This document shows, piece after piece, positions 1 to 9,198 of a stretch of DNA of 64,000 nt (within the stretch, counting starts at the first letter, position 1; the number at the start of each line of letters is the position of its first letter). The stretch is from Gracilibacillus ureilyticus (GTDB lineage: Bacteria > Bacillota > Bacilli > Bacillales > Amphibacillaceae). Below the pieces are notes generated by a model, which saw nothing but the letters and a program-made list of their open reading frames with translations, was not told the origin of the DNA and did no database searches. The stretch covers positions 1 through 64,000 of the forward strand of contig NZ_FOGL01000017.1 in assembly GCF_900111195.1 (NCBI RefSeq), written 5' to 3'. Both the position numbers and the translations under genes were made by a program.

Positions 1-141
1 GTTCTAGCATATGAAAAGCACCTCCTTAAATTGATACATTCATCATACCAGGAGGTGCTGCGTGTTTATATGCGTTATTTGATTGGGGGCTTACGGTTTA
101 CTAAAGAAAGGCATAAATACAAGGGAAAGAACAGGAAATAA
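1..141 (+). CDS. Possible 3' end of an unrecognised gene, cut by the window edge
   Basis: Frame 1 is open from the first base to a TAA at 139-141, giving 46 codons with no start needed. The visible tail ends in a strongly basic run rich in Lys, Arg and Gly. I do not recognise the family. An inverted repeat (10 bp, 17-26 with 50-59) lies inside the frame, which also fits non-coding sequence. A chance open frame of this length is quite possible, so this is a weak call. Confidence 0.3.
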   Translation, partial: VLAYEKHLLKLIHSSYQEVLRVYMRYLIGGLRFTKERHKYKGKNRK

Positions 142-362
142 TTTTTAAAAAGGGTTAAAAAGAGGCGATGTGAAAGATAGAATAATAGTGTAAGAACATT
201 TTTTATTTACTTTTTATCAAGCAAACAAATTAATAGAAGACCTATTGGGTCCGCATAAATTGATAAAAATCATCGGTGAGATGTGTGGCGATAAAACAAT
301 CGTTAACATTTTCTTATCGATGTTTTTTTATATAAAAAATCAGGGAAGGGAAGTGAAACAAA
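142..362. other. AT-rich intergenic stretch
   Basis: I see no convincing gene here. A weak 6-bp hairpin (289-294 with 314-319) is followed by a T-run at 321-327 and could be a feeble terminator. The Shine-Dalgarno of the next gene (GGGAAG type, about 346-353) lies at its end. Confidence 0.4.
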
Positions 363-620
363 ATGAATCAAATAGAAAAATTTCATGTGATAAAAAGAAC
401 AGCGGGGAAAGACGAACAATTTACAGTAATTGATGCAATGTCACTAGATGAAGCAGATGCAATTTTTCTTGTCCGACATGAAAGAGAAAAGGATACTGCT
501 GTGAATAAAGGAGAGGAATTCCTTATCTTTGAGTCGTATGGAGAGCTGGAATATGATGAGAACAATCGAGTGGTATTACCGGAAAGTGGAGAAATGATGA
601 TTCATCGAAATTCTTTGTGA
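363..620 (+). CDS. Small acidic hypothetical protein, copy 1 of a tandem pair
   Basis: This 85-residue protein is of unknown family. It is clearly paralogous to the next gene: both start MNQ-E, share a (K/R)RT--KDEQF-VIDAMSL-EA-AIF-VR core at about residues 10-38, and share a YDENNRV segment near the C-terminus. It has no signal peptide or membrane segment and is probably cytosolic. A purine-rich ribosome site lies just upstream of ATG 363. The core reads like a small mixed alpha/beta fold. Role unknown. The two copies have diverged mostly in the middle and at the C-terminus, as expected for an old local duplication. Confidence 0.7.
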   Translation: MNQIEKFHVIKRTAGKDEQFTVIDAMSLDEADAIFLVRHEREKDTAVNKGEEFLIFESYGELEYDENNRVVLPESGEMMIHRNSL

Positions 621-682
621 AAGAAGACCTTTCAGGTTCGACGAGTAAGGTTAATTAAAAAATCAGTATGGAGGGAAGCTGA

Positions 683-949
683 ATGAATCAAATGGAGCAG
701 TACTTCGTTGTAAGAAGAACCGAGGAGAAGGATGAACAATTTGCAGTGATTGATGCAATGTCATTAGCTGAGGCTAAGGCGATTTTCAAAGTCCGATATG
801 ATGAATTCGATATCACTAATGAAGAAATTAAGGAAGAAACTTTTTTCATATTTAAATTAGATGGAGACCTGAAATATGACGAAAATAATCGAGTGCTACT
901 TTCAGAAGTTGTAGGGGATATGGCAATTACTTCAAGGTGGCAGCAATAA
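683..949 (+). CDS. Small acidic hypothetical protein, copy 2 of a tandem pair
   Basis: This 88-residue paralogue of the preceding gene lies 62 bases downstream. It has a strong GGAGGG Shine-Dalgarno (671-676) before ATG 683. The shared KDEQF-VIDAMSL core and YDENNRV motif show that both reading frames are under protein-level constraint, which supports calling both genes real despite their size. It is soluble, with no recognisable catalytic motif. A good terminator follows directly, so the two copies probably form a short transcription unit. Function unknown. Confidence 0.72.
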   Translation: MNQMEQYFVVRRTEEKDEQFAVIDAMSLAEAKAIFKVRYDEFDITNEEIKEETFFIFKLDGDLKYDENNRVLLSEVVGDMAITSRWQQ

Positions 950-961
950 GGATGTATGACA

Positions 962-1004
962 AAGAGATGGCTCCTATTGGTTTCTAATTGGAGTCATCTT
1001 TTTT
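962..1004 (+). terminator. Rho-independent terminator after the paralogue pair
   Basis: Stem GATGGCTCC (966-974) pairs with GGAGTCATC (990-998) with one G-T wobble. It is followed by six T residues. Confidence 0.8.
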
Positions 1005-1306
1005 GTCTCTGTTATTAGTTACTGATAATGTTTAGCTATAGAAATCTTACAATCAATCTATTAAACGTTGGCTGTACTAAACGTCATGTATTAAAGCAAT
1101 ATGTGATTCGTGAAGGTTGATGTCTAGGAAGAAATGTCCTAGACATTCAGCAGATCTGTTATTATTTTAAATCTTCAGCACCGTGTTTTAATATATGGTA
1201 ACGATTAAAAGTAACTAATACTAGCAATGTAAAAGTGATTTATAAATTATTTTAGAGGTGTTTTTCCCCTCTAAAAGTTGTTCGTAGAATTATGATCCTA
1301 TGATTA
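1005..1306. repeat. Intergenic stretch with inverted and direct repeats before the broken recombinase
   Basis: No gene is seen. It contains a perfect 10-bp inverted repeat with a 7-base spacer (1120-1129 and 1137-1146, ATGTCTAGGA type). A second, 9-bp inverted repeat (1250-1258 and 1268-1276) also lies here. A 14-bp direct repeat, GTTCGTAGAATTAT, occurs at 1280-1293 and again at 1331-1344 inside the recombinase reading frame. The 51-base offset is a multiple of three. Neither hairpin has a T-tract, so these are not ordinary terminators. Recombinase binding sites are one possibility, by inference from position only. Confidence 0.5.
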
Positions 1307-2272
1307 ATGAATAAATTAAGACGGGTTACTGTTCGTAGAATTATTTTATTTTTGGATGGGAGAGTATGGAAAAAATATATCGATCAATTTATTCGTTATC
1401 TGTATGAAGAAGCTAAAGACGAAAAGACAATTATTGCTTATCGTACATCAGTTGCTCATTTCCTAAAATGGAAAGAAGAAAGGGATGGGGAGTATATTAT
1501 AGAAGAAACACGTCCTATTGACATCAAAGAATATACAAGTTTTTTAAAACATCAATGTAAACGGAAACCTGCAACCATAAGTAAATATATTGCTGCATTA
1601 AAGGTTTTCTTTGGATTTTTATTTGATCAAGGTCTGGTTAAGGACAATCCAATGACTCGTATCAAGATTGAAACATTGGAATATGTCATTAGTGCTAATG
1701 AAACAAAATGGTTAACTAAAGAGTAACAAGACCGCATCATCAGTTATGTTCAATTAGAGCCGAATGAATTTAAACTATTTCGGAATCTGGCTAATATTGA
1801 TCTAATGTTGTATTCAGGACTCAGGGTAAATGAAGTTTCCTCATTAGAGATAGAAGATATTATAACAAAGGAAAGAGATTTCCAAGTGATTATTCGGGAA
1901 GGGAAGAGGGATAAGTTTGCAATTGTTATGCTTGTTCAGAAACACGCTAAAAATTTACGAAAATGGTTAAAGTATCGAAAAGGTCTTGAAAAGAAAATAC
2001 ATAAGGAATCCACCCAATTATTTGTATCATAACGTTCCCCGTTTTTATCAGAAAGAGGAATTCAAAAGATGTTGAACAAATATGCAAAGCTGGCAAATAA
2101 GGAAAACATCACCCCGCACCGATTCCGCCACAGTTTTTGTAAAAACCTTGCTAATGCTGGAACACCAATTGAGATTATAAGAAAGTTGGCCCGTCACGAG
2201 AGCATTCAAACAACCGCTGTTTATGTTGATTCATCACAGGAGGAACAGATTGAAGCGTTGAGGAAGAGGTGA
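1307..2272 (+). pseudogene. Tyrosine recombinase (XerC/D-like phage integrase family), interrupted by two in-frame TAA codons
   Basis: A single frame of 321 sense or stop codons reads as one complete tyrosine recombinase. The N-terminal SAM-like core-binding domain covers about residues 15-115 and the catalytic domain about 140-321. All catalytic residues are encoded: R173 in SGLRVNEV, H271 and R274 in HRFRH, H297 in ARHES and Y306. TAA codons stand at 1724-1726 (codon 140) and 2030-2032 (codon 242), with no frameshift. The natural reading is inactivation by two nonsense changes. The true start is uncertain, because the first 20 codons overlap a direct repeat and no strong Shine-Dalgarno is visible. 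Confidence 0.8.
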
Positions 2273-2282
2273 ATATATTAAT

Positions 2283-4175
2283 TTGAGCATAGCAAAGCAC
2301 TATTTTCCCTTAATGATATATTCTATCCAATTTTATGTATTAAAAAAACAGTACACGCCAATAATAGTAAAAATAAAATTATTGGCGGTGGAAATCTTGG
2401 CATTAGTAACACATTATGGGGTATTGAATTGGACTAAATCTAATAAAGTATACTACGAGTCACTCGGCTACAAATATACAAATTTAGGTGATTGTTTTGA
2501 GGTGGCAGCACAACATCTTTCGGTTGATCAACCAAGATATCCTAAACACTACACTACAAAATGGATTGGTAAAAAACAATATAATGATCATTACAAAGAA
2601 AGAGGTTATATATTTACAAAACCCAATGAAAAATTTTTAGTAAGTCCATGTGATTTACTTCCAAATTCAAAAGTTGAGATCCTATGTATCTGTGATTCGT
2701 GCAATATAGTATTCGAATGTGGTTATTATTTGCATTATCAACGAAGAACTAGCAATAAATCTGATACTTGTGACAATTGCACACAGAATAAAGAAGTTAA
2801 TTTCATTAATTATCTAAATAAGTTAAAGAAGGCATATCTAGAAGGAATGTTTGTAATAAAAGATAATACAGTCAGTGTGAAGACAGAATCTGGTTACGTT
2901 GTGATGCATTCTAATAGAAAAAATCAAATATATTTACCGCTTTTCAATAAAAGTCGAATTTCAAAGGGTATTTTGTTATTTATTCCTAATCCGGAAAATA
3001 ATATAGTTTCTGAAGAAAATCTGGCAATCTATTGGTATGAAAATAAATTGCCTAATGTTAAATTGAACGGTTTTTGGACCATAAGTCAGTGTAAAGCCTG
3101 TTTACTTTTAGTTAAAAGTAAAGGGGAGTCTTTATCGACATTAAATCTTAGGAAAAAATATAATAATCTCTACACGGCAATAACAAAGCAAATGCCTTAT
3201 TATGATTTCTTGCTCTACTGTGGAGAGGATCCTATAGAGAGTTATTTTGATGAATTTGAAACGATTGAGGATAGAAGATTATTGGGGATTTATGTTGAGC
3301 ATAACATAAGGAACTTAATAACGAAGCATAGCAATTATTTTGATTTCCAACAAAAAGACCAGAATAATCGTCTAGACATTATAAATAAAATTGATAAAAG
3401 TGTAACAGAGTTTAAATTAAGTATCGATATGAGATTAAATAAGGAGAAAAGGAAATATGTAGAATATAACTTATCTATTGTATTCTTATTAGGAGAAGAA
3501 TATTTTTTTGACATAACTAAAGAAGGCTTTAAGGTTATGAGCATTTTCCAATGGATTGACCTCAATAAGAAATACTTAAAAAATACGGATTTATTGATCG
3601 ATAAAATTCGAAGGTTTAAAAATCTACTTCTTGATCCGGTAACTGCTTCTAAAGAAAGTCAAAATTATTATACTAACCTTTGTAAAAAAATCTTTGAATT
3701 AAGTAGAAAAGGTGAATCACATGAATCGATTGCTGAAAAGTTAGGACCTAGTAGAAGACAAATAGGAAGAATTTTGAATGGGCAAACCTTAAAGCCTTAT
3801 ATCGACAAGGATTTAAGCTTGGATTATAAAATTATGAAAAGGGAAGAAAAGGATATAAGGTCTGAGCGAAATAGATTAATTGTAGAATTAAGTAATTCAG
3901 GAAGAAAAACAGTTGAAATACAGATGCACATATCTAAAATATACGGTTCTATTTCAATAAATAGGATAGAACAAATCATTCATAAAAGTAATATAAAGAA
4001 GGTTACAAAAAAGGGTGAAATTGTAGCAACTGATATGGATGGAAATGTATTAGGTGTTTTTTCCACTTCTACTGAGGCAGCTAAAGAACTGGATTTACCG
4101 AATTACCGGAATATATGTACGGTTCTTAGAAATGAGAGACCGCATTACAAAAAGATTAAGTTCAGCTATGCCTAG
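2283..4175 (+). CDS. Putative nuclease with zinc ribbon, PD-(D/E)XK-like core, helix-turn-helix and NUMOD1-like C-terminus
   Basis: The protein has 630 residues if it starts at TTG 2283, ten bases after the recombinase stop and behind an AGAGGTGA Shine-Dalgarno. TTG 2397 is an in-frame alternative (592 residues). The N-terminal part has two copies of a 'YYE-GY-FT---E-F-V---DL' module, seen in phage and homing-endonuclease-associated proteins, then a treble-Cys zinc ribbon (C137-x2-C140 and C163-x2-C166). E339 in a helix, D365 in RLDII and E376-x-K378 in TEFKLS fit the E...D...ExK pattern of a PD-(D/E)XK nuclease. A helix-turn-helix spans about 472-500. Residues about 578-630 resemble NUMOD1 DNA-binding modules of homing endonucleases. 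It is AT-rich like its neighbours. The nuclease assignment is inference; the DNA-binding modules are better supported. Confidence 0.65.
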   Translation: MSIAKHYFPLMIYSIQFYVLKKQYTPIIVKIKLLAVEILALVTHYGVLNWTKSNKVYYESLGYKYTNLGDCFEVAAQHLSVDQPRYPKHYTTKWIGKKQYNDHYKERGYIFTKPNEKFLVSPCDLLPNSKVEILCICDSCNIVFECGYYLHYQRRTSNKSDTCDNCTQNKEVNFINYLNKLKKAYLEGMFVIKDNTVSVKTESGYVVMHSNRKNQIYLPLFNKSRISKGILLFIPNPENNIVSEENLAIYWYENKLPNVKLNGFWTISQCKACLLLVKSKGESLSTLNLRKKYNNLYTAITKQMPYYDFLLYCGEDPIESYFDEFETIEDRRLLGIYVEHNIRNLITKHSNYFDFQQKDQNNRLDIINKIDKSVTEFKLSIDMRLNKEKRKYVEYNLSIVFLLGEEYFFDITKEGFKVMSIFQWIDLNKKYLKNTDLLIDKIRRFKNLLLDPVTASKESQNYYTNLCKKIFELSRKGESHESIAEKLGPSRRQIGRILNGQTLKPYIDKDLSLDYKIMKREEKDIRSERNRLIVELSNSGRKTVEIQMHISKIYGSISINRIEQIIHKSNIKKVTKKGEIVATDMDGNVLGVFSTSTEAAKELDLPNYRNICTVLRNERPHYKKIKFSYA

Positions 4176-4278
4176 TTTTTAGAATTAATTAGTGTAAAGG
4201 TAGTTAAAACTTATTACACATGAGTTAATAAACTACTCGGACAAATGATGCAATCTTATTAAGTACGGAGGACAGGTA
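4176..4278. other. Short gap before the MNT relic
   Basis: No gene is seen. A GGAGGA Shine-Dalgarno (about 4266-4271) precedes the GTG at 4279, so the relic downstream once had a normal translation signal. Confidence 0.5.
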
Positions 4279-4446
4279 GTGTCGTACGATCTACTTAAAG
4301 AAAAATGGGACTTGGTTATAAAATTTGCAAATCAATATGGTATTCAAAATATACGTGTCATTGATGTATCAAAGATTCAGGTTCAAGCTACAAGTGACTT
4401 AGATTTACTTGTAGATGTCAAAAAAGAACGAAGCTTATTGTTTTAG
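4279..4446 (+). pseudogene. Relic of a minimal nucleotidyltransferase (MntA/MNT type)
   Basis: A 55-codon frame from GTG 4279 to TAG 4444-4446 has the N-terminal layout of MNT-family proteins: helix, NIRV strand, then SDLDLLVD and RSLL. MNT antitoxins pair with HepT (HEPN) toxins. In intact members the NIRVFGS(V/A)ARGE segment carries the Gly-Ser nucleotide-binding motif. Here that segment reads IDVSKIQ, so the motif is lost, while the SDLDLLVD acidic metal site survives. The frame ends at about half the usual length, and 4447-4617 holds only unrecognisable decayed sequence. No HepT partner is visible. I regard this as a dead toxin-antitoxin fragment. Confidence 0.65.
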
Positions 4447-4617
4447 ACATGGAATCGAAGTCTAGCCGCAGATTAGAGCGAAAGATTTAACAGAAAATTT
4501 GTTTTATTGAAGTAATAAAGCTATGAAAGACTTTTTAAGGTAACTAGTACGATGTGATTATATTAAAGTAGTGATAGAATCATCTTAATAAGTACTTTTA
4601 AAAAGGGGAGGATAGCA

Positions 4618-5700
4618 ATGCAAGATAATACATTTATTACATTAAAGTCAATTTCAGGGGATGTGGTTTTATCACAAGGAGGTTATGGTTTCCAATCTGT
4701 TATTGATGATTTTGAAAAGGCAAGTTATATAAATATTGTTACTTACAGCATTAGGCCTTTCGAAGATTCGGAGCTACTAAGTATAATTAAGAAAATTCCA
4801 TATAGTGTACCAGTAAATATAGTACTAAATATCCCTAAGAAATCTTATAATAGTCCAGATGCCTATAAACAAGTATATTGGTATCTAAGGACCTTAGAGA
4901 GACAAAAGTTTAATGACTTAAATGTTTATTTTAATTTTTCTAATCACGCCAAACTTATTATGACAAGTAACAAAGCATATATAGGTTCACAAAACTTTTC
5001 AGATGCTAGTTCCGACAAGGTTGAGCTTGGAATAATAGTTAAAGGTGCTAGTGATGTAGAAAGAATTAATAAAGAAATATTTGAAACCATTAGGACTAAT
5101 TCTATAAGATATGCGACATCCGATTATGTAATAAAAATGGAGGAAATACAAGGGATTATGGCTGGGGTTTTAGAAAACTTACGTTATGATATCTTTACAA
5201 TTGCAGGTGATCCTCCATATACACCTGAGATAGAAATTTTTGATATAAATCATGCACACTTCCCAAAAGAGGAGTGGTCAAAATTCAAGGATTTAGATGA
5301 AAGTTTATTTGATATTATCGATATTATAAGTGTGGAATATGAAGGGGTTTTTAATAATAATAGAGCAGAATTTCTAAAAGTAGAACTACAAACACATTTA
5401 AAAACATTTATATCTAAAGTTGATAAATTTGCCGAGTATTTATATTCTTGGGAGAGTAGAGTGTTTGATCGCTTTTATGAAGTCGACGATGGAGATACGG
5501 ATTCTACTATGAACTATGTACTTGGAAATTTAGAGGAAGAAAAGGCTGGGAAATTTGAACATCTAAATGGGGAGGAACTCCTTAACAATTTTGATCAAAT
5601 TAAACCAATAATAGAGAGTATACTTGATTTAGTTGAAGAAATTAAATATGAGATGTTAAAGCGAACTGTTTATGAAAATCAAGGCCAAATTGAGGATTAA
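4618..5700 (+). CDS. Phospholipase D-like protein with a single HKD-type motif
   Basis: This 360-residue protein has a good GGGGAGG Shine-Dalgarno before ATG 4618. Residues about 20-150 form a PLD-like fold. The motif has H110-x-K112 followed by G123-S124-x-N126, the H-x-K...GSxN pattern of the PLD superfamily. Only one such motif is present, as in Nuc/BfiI-type nucleases that dimerise to build one active site. Residues about 150-360 are acidic and helical and match nothing I recognise. No signal peptide or membrane segment is evident, so a cytosolic nuclease or phosphodiesterase is more likely than a lipase. Its own terminator follows, so it is probably monocistronic. A defence role is possible given the island setting, but not shown. 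Confidence 0.75.
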   Translation: MQDNTFITLKSISGDVVLSQGGYGFQSVIDDFEKASYINIVTYSIRPFEDSELLSIIKKIPYSVPVNIVLNIPKKSYNSPDAYKQVYWYLRTLERQKFNDLNVYFNFSNHAKLIMTSNKAYIGSQNFSDASSDKVELGIIVKGASDVERINKEIFETIRTNSIRYATSDYVIKMEEIQGIMAGVLENLRYDIFTIAGDPPYTPEIEIFDINHAHFPKEEWSKFKDLDESLFDIIDIISVEYEGVFNNNRAEFLKVELQTHLKTFISKVDKFAEYLYSWESRVFDRFYEVDDGDTDSTMNYVLGNLEEEKAGKFEHLNGEELLNNFDQIKPIIESILDLVEEIKYEMLKRTVYENQGQIED

Positions 5701-5746
5701 TCAAATCTAATTTTTACCTACGATAATTTCCTATCATTTATAAGAG

Positions 5747-5796
5747 TTTATAGACAAGTTATGGATTAAGCTTGTCTATAAATTCTTATTTTTTTG
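5747..5796 (+). terminator. Terminator of the PLD-like gene
   Basis: A perfect 12-bp stem (5747-5758 with 5771-5782) is followed by a T-rich tract ending in seven T residues. Confidence 0.85.
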
Positions 5797-6445
5797 TAGT
5801 TTACTAAACACGTATCGTCAGTTGTTAGGTGAAAACTATACAAAACATATATATAATAATGTAGCAGATGTTATTTTTAGGAATCTAACCTATTTCACAC
5901 AAATTTTTCACAAGCATTTAAAAAATCCTTCTATATCAAGGGTAAAGGGAGCATATTGTATCCCGACCATCGGTATCCTATATATGTTAGTATAGTAATT
6001 TGGTTGATATAAGGTTTAATTAGTAATTAGCATTGGGGAATATTCCAATGCTGCTTTTGCCATTCTATTGAATTCATATCCTTTATTTAAATAATGATTA
6101 CGGCCACTGAAATGTACCAACTTTGACATACTTTTTACTACGTAATGACGAGAAGTGTACCAATGAATGACAGACGGATTACCGTTTCATACTTTCTGGA
6201 TAATTAAAGTTAACAATCCATAGTTTTTGGAAGCGCAAATATTATACCAATTGTACAAATCTATGATTTTCAATTACAGGAGTCCTCCACAAATGGGCCA
6301 GTTTGTTAAATAAGAGAATTTAGATAAACTCTAATAAGGAGTATAAAATTTTCTGTATTTACAATAGCTGTCGATAAACAAGCAGTACAAATATATGCCC
6401 TCTAACGGTAAATAATAGTAAAATATACATTAAGGGGGAAGGAAA
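5797..6445. other. Gene-poor stretch with possible IS21-like end relics
   Basis: No credible open frame lies here. Two direct copies of TGTACCAA (6113-6120 and 6156-6163), with a GGCCACT block at 6102-6108, resemble the repeated terminal motifs next to istB in IS21-family elements. This is a resemblance only. A GGGGGAAGG Shine-Dalgarno lies at about 6434-6442 for the next reading frame. Confidence 0.35.
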
Positions 6446-7503
6446 ATGAATATTCAAGAGGTTTATGACATATATATCAAAAGTGATTTTATTAGAAATA
6501 AATCATCTCTAGGAGTTTATAAAGAGAAAATTAACAAGTATATTAGTGTTATGCATAATACTGATATTCGTGTTGCTTTTGAAGAAGAAAATTTACGAAC
6601 ATTTATATTTGATAATAAACAGTCACCTCAAGGAAAGTATGAAGCATTTAATAATTTTTATATGTTTTACCATGAACGAATTTTACATATTCCAAAACGA
6701 GATGTACCTGTATTTCCAATTGATAAACGAAAAGAAATACAGTCGCTAAAAAAAGACAAAGTACGGGAACCCATTTATTTTCCAAAAGAGTTTGATTTAA
6801 ATATATTATTTGATGATCATTTCTATGAACATCTTGCCCTAATGCAACCTTACTGGTAAAAGCAGCCATTGCTCTTGCCTTATCTGCTGGCTATGATAGT
6901 GGCGAAATGTTTCCAACGAATGTTCAAAACAAACCTAATACCATGAAAGTGGACGATTTATTTATTGAAGATAATTATATAAAAGTACGAAACAATTATA
7001 GTCAATCCTTTGTTCCATGGATTCTTGTTCGAGGAGAAAACGCGGAACATATTAAAGCATATATGAAAATTAGAAAAAATGCAGAAGTTCATTCCGGACA
7101 GGAAGAAAACTTTTTTGCAAATGTATGGAATGCAAAAGAATTGTTATATAAACAGGATTTAGTCAGTTCAAAACCATACACTCCCCATGCTTAGGTTTCT
7201 TATATGCTCAAATATATTTTCAATCAATTACAGTTTCCAATTCTAGTTATAAACGATCTACGTTCTAATATGGTTCTTCATGCTTTATATCGTTCAAAAG
7301 GAGCAGCATTAAAAGACATTATTGAATTATTTGGTTATCTTCCCTTTGTGCAATATGCTTTTGAAAAGTATTGCGAAGAGCTAAATACTGATGTAGATAG
7401 TTACTTTTCTCCGTTGTCTTTGGATGAAGTAGTAACAACAAATGAGGAATTAGAAGATGATGATAAGGAAAAAAACGCTAAAATCAATGGAGAGCATTAT
7501 TGA
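6446..7503 (+). pseudogene. Decayed tyrosine-recombinase-like gene (one frameshift, one in-frame stop)
   Basis: Three reading-frame pieces join into one protein of about 350 residues. Piece 1 starts at ATG 6446. Near 6830-6855 the frame shifts by one, after which the sequence reads LVKAAIALALSAGYDSGEM, an integrase-like helix. A TAG at 7192-7194 then interrupts that frame, which continues unbroken to 7503. The last part (INDLRSN-VLHALY-SKGA-LKDIIELFGY) matches the HxLRHT...GA-...LGH region of tyrosine recombinases with weakened catalytic positions, so the family may already have been non-catalytic. An alternative is the MrpR-like recombinase-fold repressor family of SPbeta-like phages. The Shine-Dalgarno before 6446 is strong. 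Confidence 0.6.
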
Positions 7504-7906
7504 ACGATTAGTTCGTGATTCTAAAAAGGTAACAATATTAAAAAAGATGTATGAAAATTGCTGTCAGATTTGTGGTGATTCAATAACCTTACTCAAAGAA
7601 ATACGTTATTCAGAAGTCCACCACATTCAACCTTTTAATAGAACGCACAAAGGTATTGATGATATTCCGAATATGCTTGTGTTATGTCCAAATCATCATC
7701 AATTATTTGATTTGGGAATTTTAGCACTAAATCCAGAGGATCACAAAACTCTATTACATCTCGATCCCAAGAATCCTTTGCATAATAAAGAATTAAATCT
7801 ATCTTTTCATAAATTATCATCTACTTGTGTTCGGTATCATTATGAAAAAGTCTTTTTAAAGCTAAAAAAAGAACTAACAACAACCACCAAAAAGGTTTCA
7901 AAATAA
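7457..7906 (+). CDS. HNH endonuclease
   Basis: This 149-residue protein starts at ATG 7457 behind GAGGA (7444-7448). In-frame ATGs at 7460 and 7487 are alternatives. It overlaps the end of the recombinase-like relic by 47 bases in another frame. A zinc-bound HNH fold is visible: C36-x2-C39 and C77-x2-H80 bracket the motif H55-H56, N72 and H81, in the order HHIQPF...IPNMLVLCPNHH. That is the complete HNH signature and the gene looks intact. The C-terminus is Lys/Thr-rich. The overlapping arrangement suggests it was co-expressed with the recombinase-like protein. Substrate unknown: restriction, phage or mobile-element functions are all possible. Confidence 0.85.
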   Translation: MMIRKKTLKSMESIIERLVRDSKKVTILKKMYENCCQICGDSITLLKEIRYSEVHHIQPFNRTHKGIDDIPNMLVLCPNHHQLFDLGILALNPEDHKTLLHLDPKNPLHNKELNLSFHKLSSTCVRYHYEKVFLKLKKELTTTTKKVSK

Positions 7907-7981
7907 AAGTCTAAATACATCATAACAATCGGTAAAAAATCCAATATCAATCTTCCACAGACTGGGTGATTTGTGGAACAT

Positions 7982-8030
7982 CAAAAGCCTAATTTCTAAT
8001 TAAAAGTTCGTAGAAATTAGGCTATTTTAT
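7982..8030 (+). terminator. Terminator after the HNH gene
   Basis: A perfect 12-bp stem (7986-7997 with 8012-8023) is followed by ATTTTATCTT. The T-tract is short. Confidence 0.6.
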
Positions 8031-8194
8031 CTTACAAAACCCATAAAAGTGTACTATCGCACTTCCTTGATGCTATCTCATTGGTAAATTTGATGGCATT
8101 AAGTGAGCCATCTTCTTATGGCGGACGCTGGTAAAAGACATGACAGACGTGGTATTCTGATGGCCGTAATCAAATAAAAGGTTAGTATGTTTTA
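8031..8194. other. Remainder of the gap between the HNH gene and rpsD
   Basis: No gene is seen. A 19-codon frame from ATG at about 8118 is rich in basic residues and has no Shine-Dalgarno, so I do not call it. Confidence 0.4.
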
Positions 8195-8272
8195 TTAATT
8201 TCTTTCCATTCCTTCACCCATGCTATTATTTTTTGGCCCCAGTTTGGGCCCAGTTGGCCCCAAATTAGTGCA
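8195..8272 (-). pseudogene. C-terminal relic of a phage-type integrase
   Basis: On the minus strand, 25 codons end in tandem TAA stops. They contain a Gly-Pro/Lys repeat, TNLGPTGPKLGPK, typical of the extreme C-terminus of Gram-positive phage and ICE integrases. An in-frame stop lies immediately upstream and no further integrase is found. The relic lies about 40 bases beyond the rpsD terminator. This makes the intergenic region downstream of rpsD a likely former insertion point and marks the right edge of the island. Confidence 0.4.
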
Positions 8273-8308
8273 TTATCCTGCTTTATTTTGCAAAATGAAT
8301 TAAAACGA

Positions 8309-8352
8309 AAAAACCCCTGAAACGTTGATATAACAACATTTCAAGGGTTTTT
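8309..8352 (-). terminator. Terminator of rpsD
   Basis: A long hairpin (8309-8326 with about 8334-8350, with wobbles) has a T-tract on the minus strand. A run of T on the plus strand makes it possibly bidirectional. Confidence 0.8.
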
Positions 8353-8379
8353 ATTGCATTAAAATGCATAATGCTAATA

Positions 8380-8982
8380 TTAACGAGAGTAGAACTCAAC
8401 GATTAACGCTTCATTAATCTCAGCTGGTAACTCAGAACGCTCTGGGAAGCGAGTGTAAGTTCCTTCTAGTTTGTCAGCATCGAATGTAACATATTCTGGT
8501 GTGAATGTGTTAGCTTCAACTGCTTCAGTAATGATGTCAAGCTTTTGTGATTTTTCACGAACACCAATCACTTGACCTGGTTTTACTTCGTATGAAGGAA
8601 TGTCTACACGACTTCCATCAACAGTAATGTGACCATGGTTTACTAATTGACGTGCCTGACGACGAGTTCTTGCAAGACCGAGGCGGTATACAAGGTTATC
8701 AAGACGAGATTCAAGAAGAATCATGAAGTTCTCACCATGGATACCTTTTTGTTTACCAGCACGATCAAATAAGTTACGGAATTGACGTTCGTTTACTCCG
8801 TACATAAAACGTAGCTTTTGTTTTTCTTGTAATTGTAAACCATATTCAGATAGTTTACGACGTTGATTAGGTCCGTGTTGACCTGGTGCGTAAGGACGTT
8901 TGTCTAACTCCTTACCAGTACCTGTTAATGAGATACCAAGACGACGAGACTTTTTCCATACAGATCCTGTATAGCGAGCCAT
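8380..8982 (-). CDS. rpsD: 30S ribosomal protein S4
   Basis: This 200-residue S4 is the usual length. It binds 16S rRNA first during assembly of the 30S body and, in Bacillus, represses its own mRNA. The N-terminal [19 protein letters not shown] segment and the S4 RNA-binding domain ([22 protein letters not shown], about residues 91-112) are unmistakable. ATG 8982 has an AAAGGAGAAG Shine-Dalgarno. It is expressed alone: a sigma-A promoter at 9204-9232, a leader of over 200 bases, then a terminator. In B. subtilis tyrS lies downstream; here the accessory island occupies that position. Confidence 0.98.
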
Positions 8983-9198
8983 TGTGCATCTTCTCCTTTA
9001 TATATGAATTTTGCATAAAATAAGACAGTGTGTTCCCAATTCGTCAGCCATTTTGTTTTTCATGCATCCTCGCCCTAGTAGCAGAGAGTTACTCGATGCA
9101 CCTTAATTTCACAGAATGTGGCGGTAATCAGTTAGTGATCCGCTTTAAGGAACAAAATGGTCAGCCGGTGGTCCACATAGGCTACCTTTTTTACACAA
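8983..9198 (-). promoter_or_regulatory. Long rpsD leader, probable S4 autoregulatory RNA
   Basis: About 215 bases separate the predicted transcription start (about 9197) from the rpsD start. No real gene lies here. In B. subtilis, S4 binds its own mRNA leader to repress translation. Position, length and GC-richer blocks fit a homologous leader, but I could not fold it. The match is by context rather than by motif. Confidence 0.6.

Follow-up and report, generated by a model that had tools for sequence, protein, structure and literature searches.

The window analysed here, the first 64,000 nucleotides of contig NZ_FOGL01000017.1 of Gracilibacillus ureilyticus, carries near its start a gene for what is probably a freestanding, modular homing-type endonuclease, in which a PD-(D/E)XK core would be tethered to several DNA-reading modules, as judged from sequence comparison. 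The original prediction had left three options for this gene, namely a freestanding homing endonuclease, a target-site nuclease of a mobile element and a defence nuclease, and the first of these emerged as the best supported on account of a conserved catalytic quartet, kinship to EcoRII-C, homing-type modules and relatives at phage sites. The mechanism that we infer for cleavage, target and homing has three steps: the N-terminal modules with their zinc ribbon, the repeat unit, the helix-turn-helix and the NUMOD1-like tail would jointly bind one long DNA site, the core (E339, D365, E376 and K378) would cut that site by metal-dependent hydrolysis in DNA without the gene, and repair of the break would then copy the gene and its flanks into the gene-free DNA. 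For the window copy, a recombinase or attachment region is one possible target. The features discussed below are collected in Table 1.

Table 1. Features of the modular nuclease gene and its immediate upstream region (positions within the window).
Feature	Position	Strand	Remarks
Tyrosine recombinase pseudogene	1307..2272	+	two in-frame TAA codons; ends 10 bases before the nuclease ORF
Modular nuclease ORF	2283..4175	+	630 aa read from TTG 2283; start maybe GTG 2388 or TTG 2397
Perfect 10-bp inverted repeat	2356..2387 (2356-2365 / 2378-2387)		just before the likely start
N-module 1, residues 47-82, GY-YT type	2421..2528	+	no zinc ligands
N-module 2 with zinc ribbon, residues 93-176	2559..2810	+	C137, C140, C163, C166; phrog_12131
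Homing-endonuclease-associated-repeat-like module, residues 263-318	3069..3236	+	directly before the core
PD-(D/E)XK-type nuclease core, residues 330-430	3270..3572	+	E339, D365, E376, K378, with G335 and Y392
Helix-turn-helix, residues about 470-500	3690..3782	+	phrog_664, PF13384; clearer in relatives
NUMOD1-like tail, residues 580-625	4020..4157	+	PF07453 below curated cut-off

Conservation and kinship of the nuclease core

The quartet E339, D365, E376 and K378 had been proposed as a putative active site, to be given up should homologues not conserve it. All four residues are present at these numbers in the window protein, and the homologues do conserve them: all 19 rows of an alignment agree at G335, D365, K378 and Y392, 18 of the 19 have E339 (the other has Q), and position 376 is acidic throughout, as D in 18 rows and as E in the window copy only. 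A proline stands before D365 in 18 of the 19 rows, the window copy alone having L. The rows were picked by profile searches seeded with the window protein and the earliest relatives found; matches with internal stops (G638 and G315), two fragments of G181, two EcoRII proteins of G1080, L021 (the same protein as L015) and repeat fetches were left out, and the close tandem paralogues L077 and L086 were both retained. In a smaller alignment of 11 rows, five of the 111 positions of the nuclease part are invariant (G335, E339, D365, K378 and Y392); three of these are the preset E339, D365 and K378, an outcome with a chance of about 5e-5 for three preset positions. Comparison of the window branch (4 rows) with the other members (7 rows) by hhalign gave 95.8% (E 7e-9). 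Membership of the window core in the PD-(D/E)XK nucleases is, by these comparisons, well supported. A Vsr-like or HNH core was also considered for the window protein and rejected, as the motif does not fit.

L364 and E376, which set the window copy apart from all other rows, were counted against its reading as a homing nuclease. Such departures from the family, together with the broken state of neighbouring genes in the island, would suit a homing-type protein that has lost catalysis or is in decay, whether retained as a regulator that binds DNA or no longer retained. We regard this as rather unlikely, as all 630 codons of 2283-4175 are open and E at the (D/E)xK position is a catalytically usual motif variant, established for the PD-(D/E)XK superfamily.

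The kinship of the core came from a search of genome G1080 with the family profile, which matched two ORFs unprompted (E 2.4e-5 and 2e-4). Both are EcoRII-type restriction enzymes (PF09019 at 198 and 194 bits, cut-off 25), and one of them follows an ORF that by eye resembles a cytosine methyltransferase. When seven family members were compared with these two proteins by hhalign (87.6%, E 3.5e-6), the G and E of the family were paired with the G and E of EcoRII, and PDF with PDF, so that the profile similarity to EcoRII-C lies over the E helix and the PD strand; this match was obtained with the family and not with the window protein on its own, and it is confined to the domain's first half. Pfam also gave a weak EcoRII-C match over the same stretch in the G416 member (E 0.061). 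By computation, then, the family core is shown to be kin of EcoRII-C at the level of aligned profiles; the structure of EcoRII has been solved. EcoRII differs in having its own N-terminal domain and a partner methylase, whereas beside the window gene no methyltransferase was found among the eight ORFs or ORF pieces of window 1-9000 scanned with Pfam. An annotated methyltransferase lies 1.2 kb from the relative in Priestia aryabhattai.

Direct sequence searches of the PDB returned chance matches only, with no nuclease and no I-Ssp6803I among them, which counts against the homing reading. In an AlphaFold model of the window protein built on a 2-row alignment, the nuclease part was all-helical (block pLDDT 31-52) rather than in the restriction-endonuclease-like alpha/beta fold whose absence the original prediction would have taken as refuting and the repeat module formed four helices (about 73-86); a model of the relative P0013, likewise from two rows, had three short strands with the active-site stretch under 50. 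The (D/E)xK strand was misplaced in the alignment behind AlphaFold, and both low-confidence models were excluded from claims about the fold.

Modules around the core and the start of the gene

A Pfam scan of the window protein gave no match over cut-off, and such proteins are therefore probably missed in annotation. Two GY-FT modules had been predicted at its N-terminus, with a zinc ribbon formed by C137/C140 and C163/C166. Indeed, the four cysteines are in place at these numbers, and each of the tandem modules matches three outside proteins, ORF186 of phage Perkons, an ORF of G031 and an ORF of G155, better than all 1000 shuffles (for N-module 1, scores of 84, 80 and 64, with 0 of 1000 shuffles as good in each case). 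Compared with each other alone, the two modules are a borderline match, with 121 of 2000 shuffles scoring as well. The zinc module matches phrog_12131, named 'homing endonuclease' (E 6e-5), and recurs in proteins with other C-terminal parts: in Perkons ORF186, which has an annotated tail protein on one side and a tail-fibre gene on the other and which may have a Vsr look; in the G031 ORF, whose C-terminal half matches HNH-endonuclease phrogs; and in the short ORF of G155.

The module directly before the core resembles the repeat of PF18780 (HNH_repeat), in whose proteins a repeat-type module likewise stands directly before the core and of which the relatives carry several copies. By its Pfam name this repeat belongs with HNH enzymes; in the window protein a single divergent unit stands before a PD-(D/E)XK core instead. 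On its own, the repeat module of the window protein fails to reach PF18780, which counts against the homing reading. Aligned as a family of four rows, it pairs with nine repeats taken from two relatives that are positive for PF18780 (hhalign probability 96.1, E 3e-9), and PF18780 scores above the Pfam cut-off in six relatives (L023, L025, L078, L079, L080 and L082). By eye, some five to six repeats precede the PD-(D/E)XK core at L053:6746-8269, L091:6701-8266, L089:5178-6677 and L090:6213-7535, and these rows could possibly form a repeat-based DNA-reading array. A bolder proposal, to which we give little credence, is a homing-type architecture in which an EcoRII-C-like core is aimed by one to about six repeats of 55 residues, each reading a short stretch of DNA in TALEN-like fashion; in the window copy most of that array would have been replaced by the zinc, helix-turn-helix and NUMOD modules.

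For the two C-terminal modules the original prediction stood in part. The helix-turn-helix placed at about residues 472-500 is weak in the window protein itself (phrog_664 'DNA binding protein', E 0.006; PF13384, E 0.21) but gains support from the matching place in relatives, where HTH_23 is found in P0002 (E 4.5e-4), another helix-turn-helix model in P0005 (E 0.003) and a weaker match in P0003 (E 0.045); P0003 and P0005 carry a second helix-turn-helix further on (E 9e-5 to 2e-4). The tail does show the predicted likeness to NUMOD1, as PF07453 scores 17.0 bits over the full length and 19.8 bits (E 9e-4) with the tail alone, yet both values are under the cut-off of 22.8, which again counts against the homing reading; an I-HmuI_NUMOD-like match overlaps it (E 0.02). 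Overall, computation shows the homing-type modules of the window protein to be kin of homing-endonuclease modules.

Two Priestia plasmid proteins, WP_252288712.1 and WP_301863058.1, were found by tblastn among 72,556 plasmid records. They align with residues about 168-630 of the window protein at about 25% identity, keep the quartet, and share with it the repeat-like module, the core and the helix-turn-helix. Unlike the window protein, they have neither the N-terminal zinc modules nor a NUMOD match, and both ends of the window protein therefore look like later additions.

The true start of the window protein may lie downstream of TTG 2283, at 2388 or 2397, which is plausible because the first N-module begins near residue 47 and because a GGTGG ends five bases before the candidate start TTG 2397. 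The inverted repeat that precedes these codons is a possible leader hairpin or operator. It forms a hairpin in the predicted fold, and the whole segment is no more stable than shuffles (z -1.24); given this value, we dropped the hairpin as a case of proven regulation.

Genomic surroundings of the gene and its relatives

The family is scattered over phages, plasmids and islands, as shown by computation. A whole-protein search of the 4.07 Mb home genome (G000) matched only the window ORF itself, and a profile search later gave a distant paralogue on contig C32. Besides the window protein, the same whole-protein search of 159 genomes of its taxonomic family found two proteins whose likeness is confined to the N module. 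Matches to the first profile occurred in 3 of 397 genomes of the order; profile searches elsewhere gave 3 of 398 genomes for the phylum, 7 of 193 for another family and 6 of 61 for relatives of G1091; and a sharper core profile reached 11 of the 397 genomes of the order, the window genome included, one match being a fragment with a stop. These counts include the window genome or earlier finds, the EcoRII-type matches of G1080 and some fragments with stops. Scans of the contig collection with the whole protein, P0005 or early alignments found no relative, the relatives having come from whole-genome searches and tblastn; P0006 as query of that collection gave one phage locus, which was found again with a neighbouring ORF and with another alignment. 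Searches of phage records by tblastn gave nothing for one multi-repeat relative, and nothing for P0002 and P0006 either.

Neighbourhoods were compared at 18 loci, 16 of them in whole genomes (two in G000 and one each in G193, G241, G245, G265, G276, G414, G416, G470, G508, G968, G969, G976, G995 and G1091) and two on the Priestia plasmids. At 4 of the 18 (G241, G969, G976 and G416) the gene precedes a large terminase gene by 1.0-3.2 kb, although these may represent one inherited position, because three of them are close relatives sharing a neighbouring ORF. At one further locus (G470) it sits between the tail chaperone and tape measure genes, 32 bases before the latter. According to a phage survey, neighbourhoods by terminase and tail genes are common for homing genes, but homing genes are not the only nucleases beside terminases, and some nucleases in such places serve packaging (PMC10448857). 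When an empty allele of the tape-measure site was sought, the alignments to 4 other genomes (of 80) and to 5 phage records covered nothing but tape-measure DNA, and no clean gene-free allele emerged.

The original prediction had the ORF directly following a recombinase gene and suggested checking whether homologues sit beside the same recombinase. The adjacency is real and the upstream reading frame has Phage_integrase and SAM-like domains in Pfam, but it is a pseudogene (Table 1). A target-site nuclease working with the tyrosine recombinase of the same mobile element would find some encouragement at 4 of the 18 loci (the window, G416, G508 and G995), where a gene for a tyrosine recombinase, or a piece of one, lies no more than 0.2 kb away. 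However, the four differ in size, orientation and type, one being a pseudogene and one a fragment, and none is that close among the matches listed at the other 14 loci, the two plasmids being judged by annotation. Moreover, tyrosine recombinases cut by themselves, and clustering of mobile genes can account for the adjacency. Because the neighbour is broken and unlike those beside the relatives, such a partnership is weakly supported, and we hold it to be very improbable.

The main rival to the homing reading is use of the protein in defence or in conflict between elements, with homing-type modules reused against invading phages or rival plasmids and no homing involved. Members of one branch (P0008), in G265 and as the C32 paralogue, lie within about 7 kb of restriction- or defence-type genes, comprising GmrSD_N, ResIII helicase and HNH_2 genes in the former and HNH_2 and AAA_5 genes in the latter. 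Downstream of one Priestia plasmid member, an annotated AAA ATPase begins at a distance of 2.7 kb and a UvrD helicase comes next; both plasmid members are within about 1.2 kb of an FtsK-domain gene block that is common to many Priestia plasmids (matching 158 and 95 plasmid records). Downstream of the window gene itself lies a PLD-domain ORF weakly similar to DrmC. Against defence, PADLOC gave no family for the window protein even with E allowed up to 1, inspection of loci by eye revealed no conserved partner, and several relatives have structural genes of phages around them, not defence islands. On balance a defence role appears unlikely, and a freestanding homing-type endonuclease remains our preferred reading.

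Some of these loci have further features of their own. The paralogue on C32 (L058:9369-10184) is a PD-(D/E)XK protein of 271 aa, 4.6 kb from the HNH_2 gene and 6.7 kb from the AAA_5 gene, a pair that resembles a restriction locus. In G265 (L092:5814-7916), two closely similar nuclease copies stand in tandem around a 96-aa ORF and adjoin the GmrSD_N, ResIII helicase and HNH_2 genes. On one plasmid (L004), similarity of the FtsK block, among the listed single-piece matches, breaks off some 0.25 kb short of the nuclease gene; on the Priestia aryabhattai plasmid (L005:5400-6743) it starts abruptly at about 5390-5408, as if the gene had been cut short near the nuclease locus.

The island that holds the window gene is in decay and adjoins rpsD, recognised by eye at 8380-8982. 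Downstream of the nuclease gene come a remnant at 4276-4450 that by eye resembles a decayed nucleotidyltransferase gene, the PLD-domain ORF at 4618-5700 (PF13091, 26.8 bits against a cut-off of 27, with weak NgoFVII as well as DrmC similarity), which is possibly a nuclease in its own right, and an HNH ORF at 7457-7906 (PF13391, 43.6 bits), among whose preceding ORFs two, at 6446-6859 and 7204-7503, have no Pfam match at E 1e-4. Upstream, two small ORFs at 363-620 and 683-949 appear by eye to be tandem paralogues. Since window base 1 is also the first base of the contig, the far edge of the island falls outside view; the opening 101 bases are found again, at 98%, on contig C15, and window 1-107 is perhaps the end of an insertion sequence. 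Within the genus, window 1-2282 was matched in 2 of 16 other genomes, over 104 and 37 bases only. In window 4176-8982, the rpsD end is common to all 17 genomes of the genus (own included), and the other matches, found in several of these genomes, are short (<140 bases). No empty site for the window gene was found among the 16 other genomes of the genus, and this counts against the homing reading. Rfam gave no family at gathering score in window 1-9000; an intron-encoded enzyme was dropped on that account, and the nuclease would therefore be freestanding.

Relation to known homing endonucleases

The modular homing endonucleases of phages carry the catalytic motifs HNH, GIY-YIG and EDxHD, and unlike these enzymes the window protein has the motif E...(P)D...(D/E)xK. 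A review counts six homing families and sets the elongated, NUMOD-bearing HNH, GIY-YIG and EDxHD enzymes against the compact PD-(D/E)xK type (PMC3943268); another paper restates the six and adds an Endo VII-type family (PMC6083498), and a GIY-YIG survey describes NUMODs fused to a GIY-YIG core (PMC1564403). According to the review, I-HmuI (HNH), I-TevI (GIY-YIG) and I-Bth0305I (EDxHD) have their nuclease tethered to NUMOD-type modules (PMC3943268), as the window protein appears to have. I-Ssp6803I, by the same review, belongs to the catalytic superfamily of the window core and is used for homing, but its type is described as compact and multimerising (PMC3943268), a description that sets it apart from a protein of 630 aa with several modules. 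The window protein would thus be a variant of the homing-type endonucleases that works in the manner of the modular group with a PD-(D/E)XK core.

A family that joins PD-(D/E)XK cores to homing modules is apparently undescribed. No description of it was found in the open-access literature, where the motif name PD-(D/E)XK itself is not searchable; the phrase 'homing endonuclease associated repeat' likewise returned nothing there, and PF18780 came up only in a table row on repeat modelling (PMC8078820).

To conclude, we describe a nuclease gene of G. ureilyticus whose PD-(D/E)XK core, if truly coupled to homing modules, would break the divide between compact and modular enzymes as drawn in the review (PMC3943268). 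If so, homing modules would move between unrelated cutting cores, and the relatives with tandem repeats offer an accessible set for asking how a repeat of 55 residues reads DNA.
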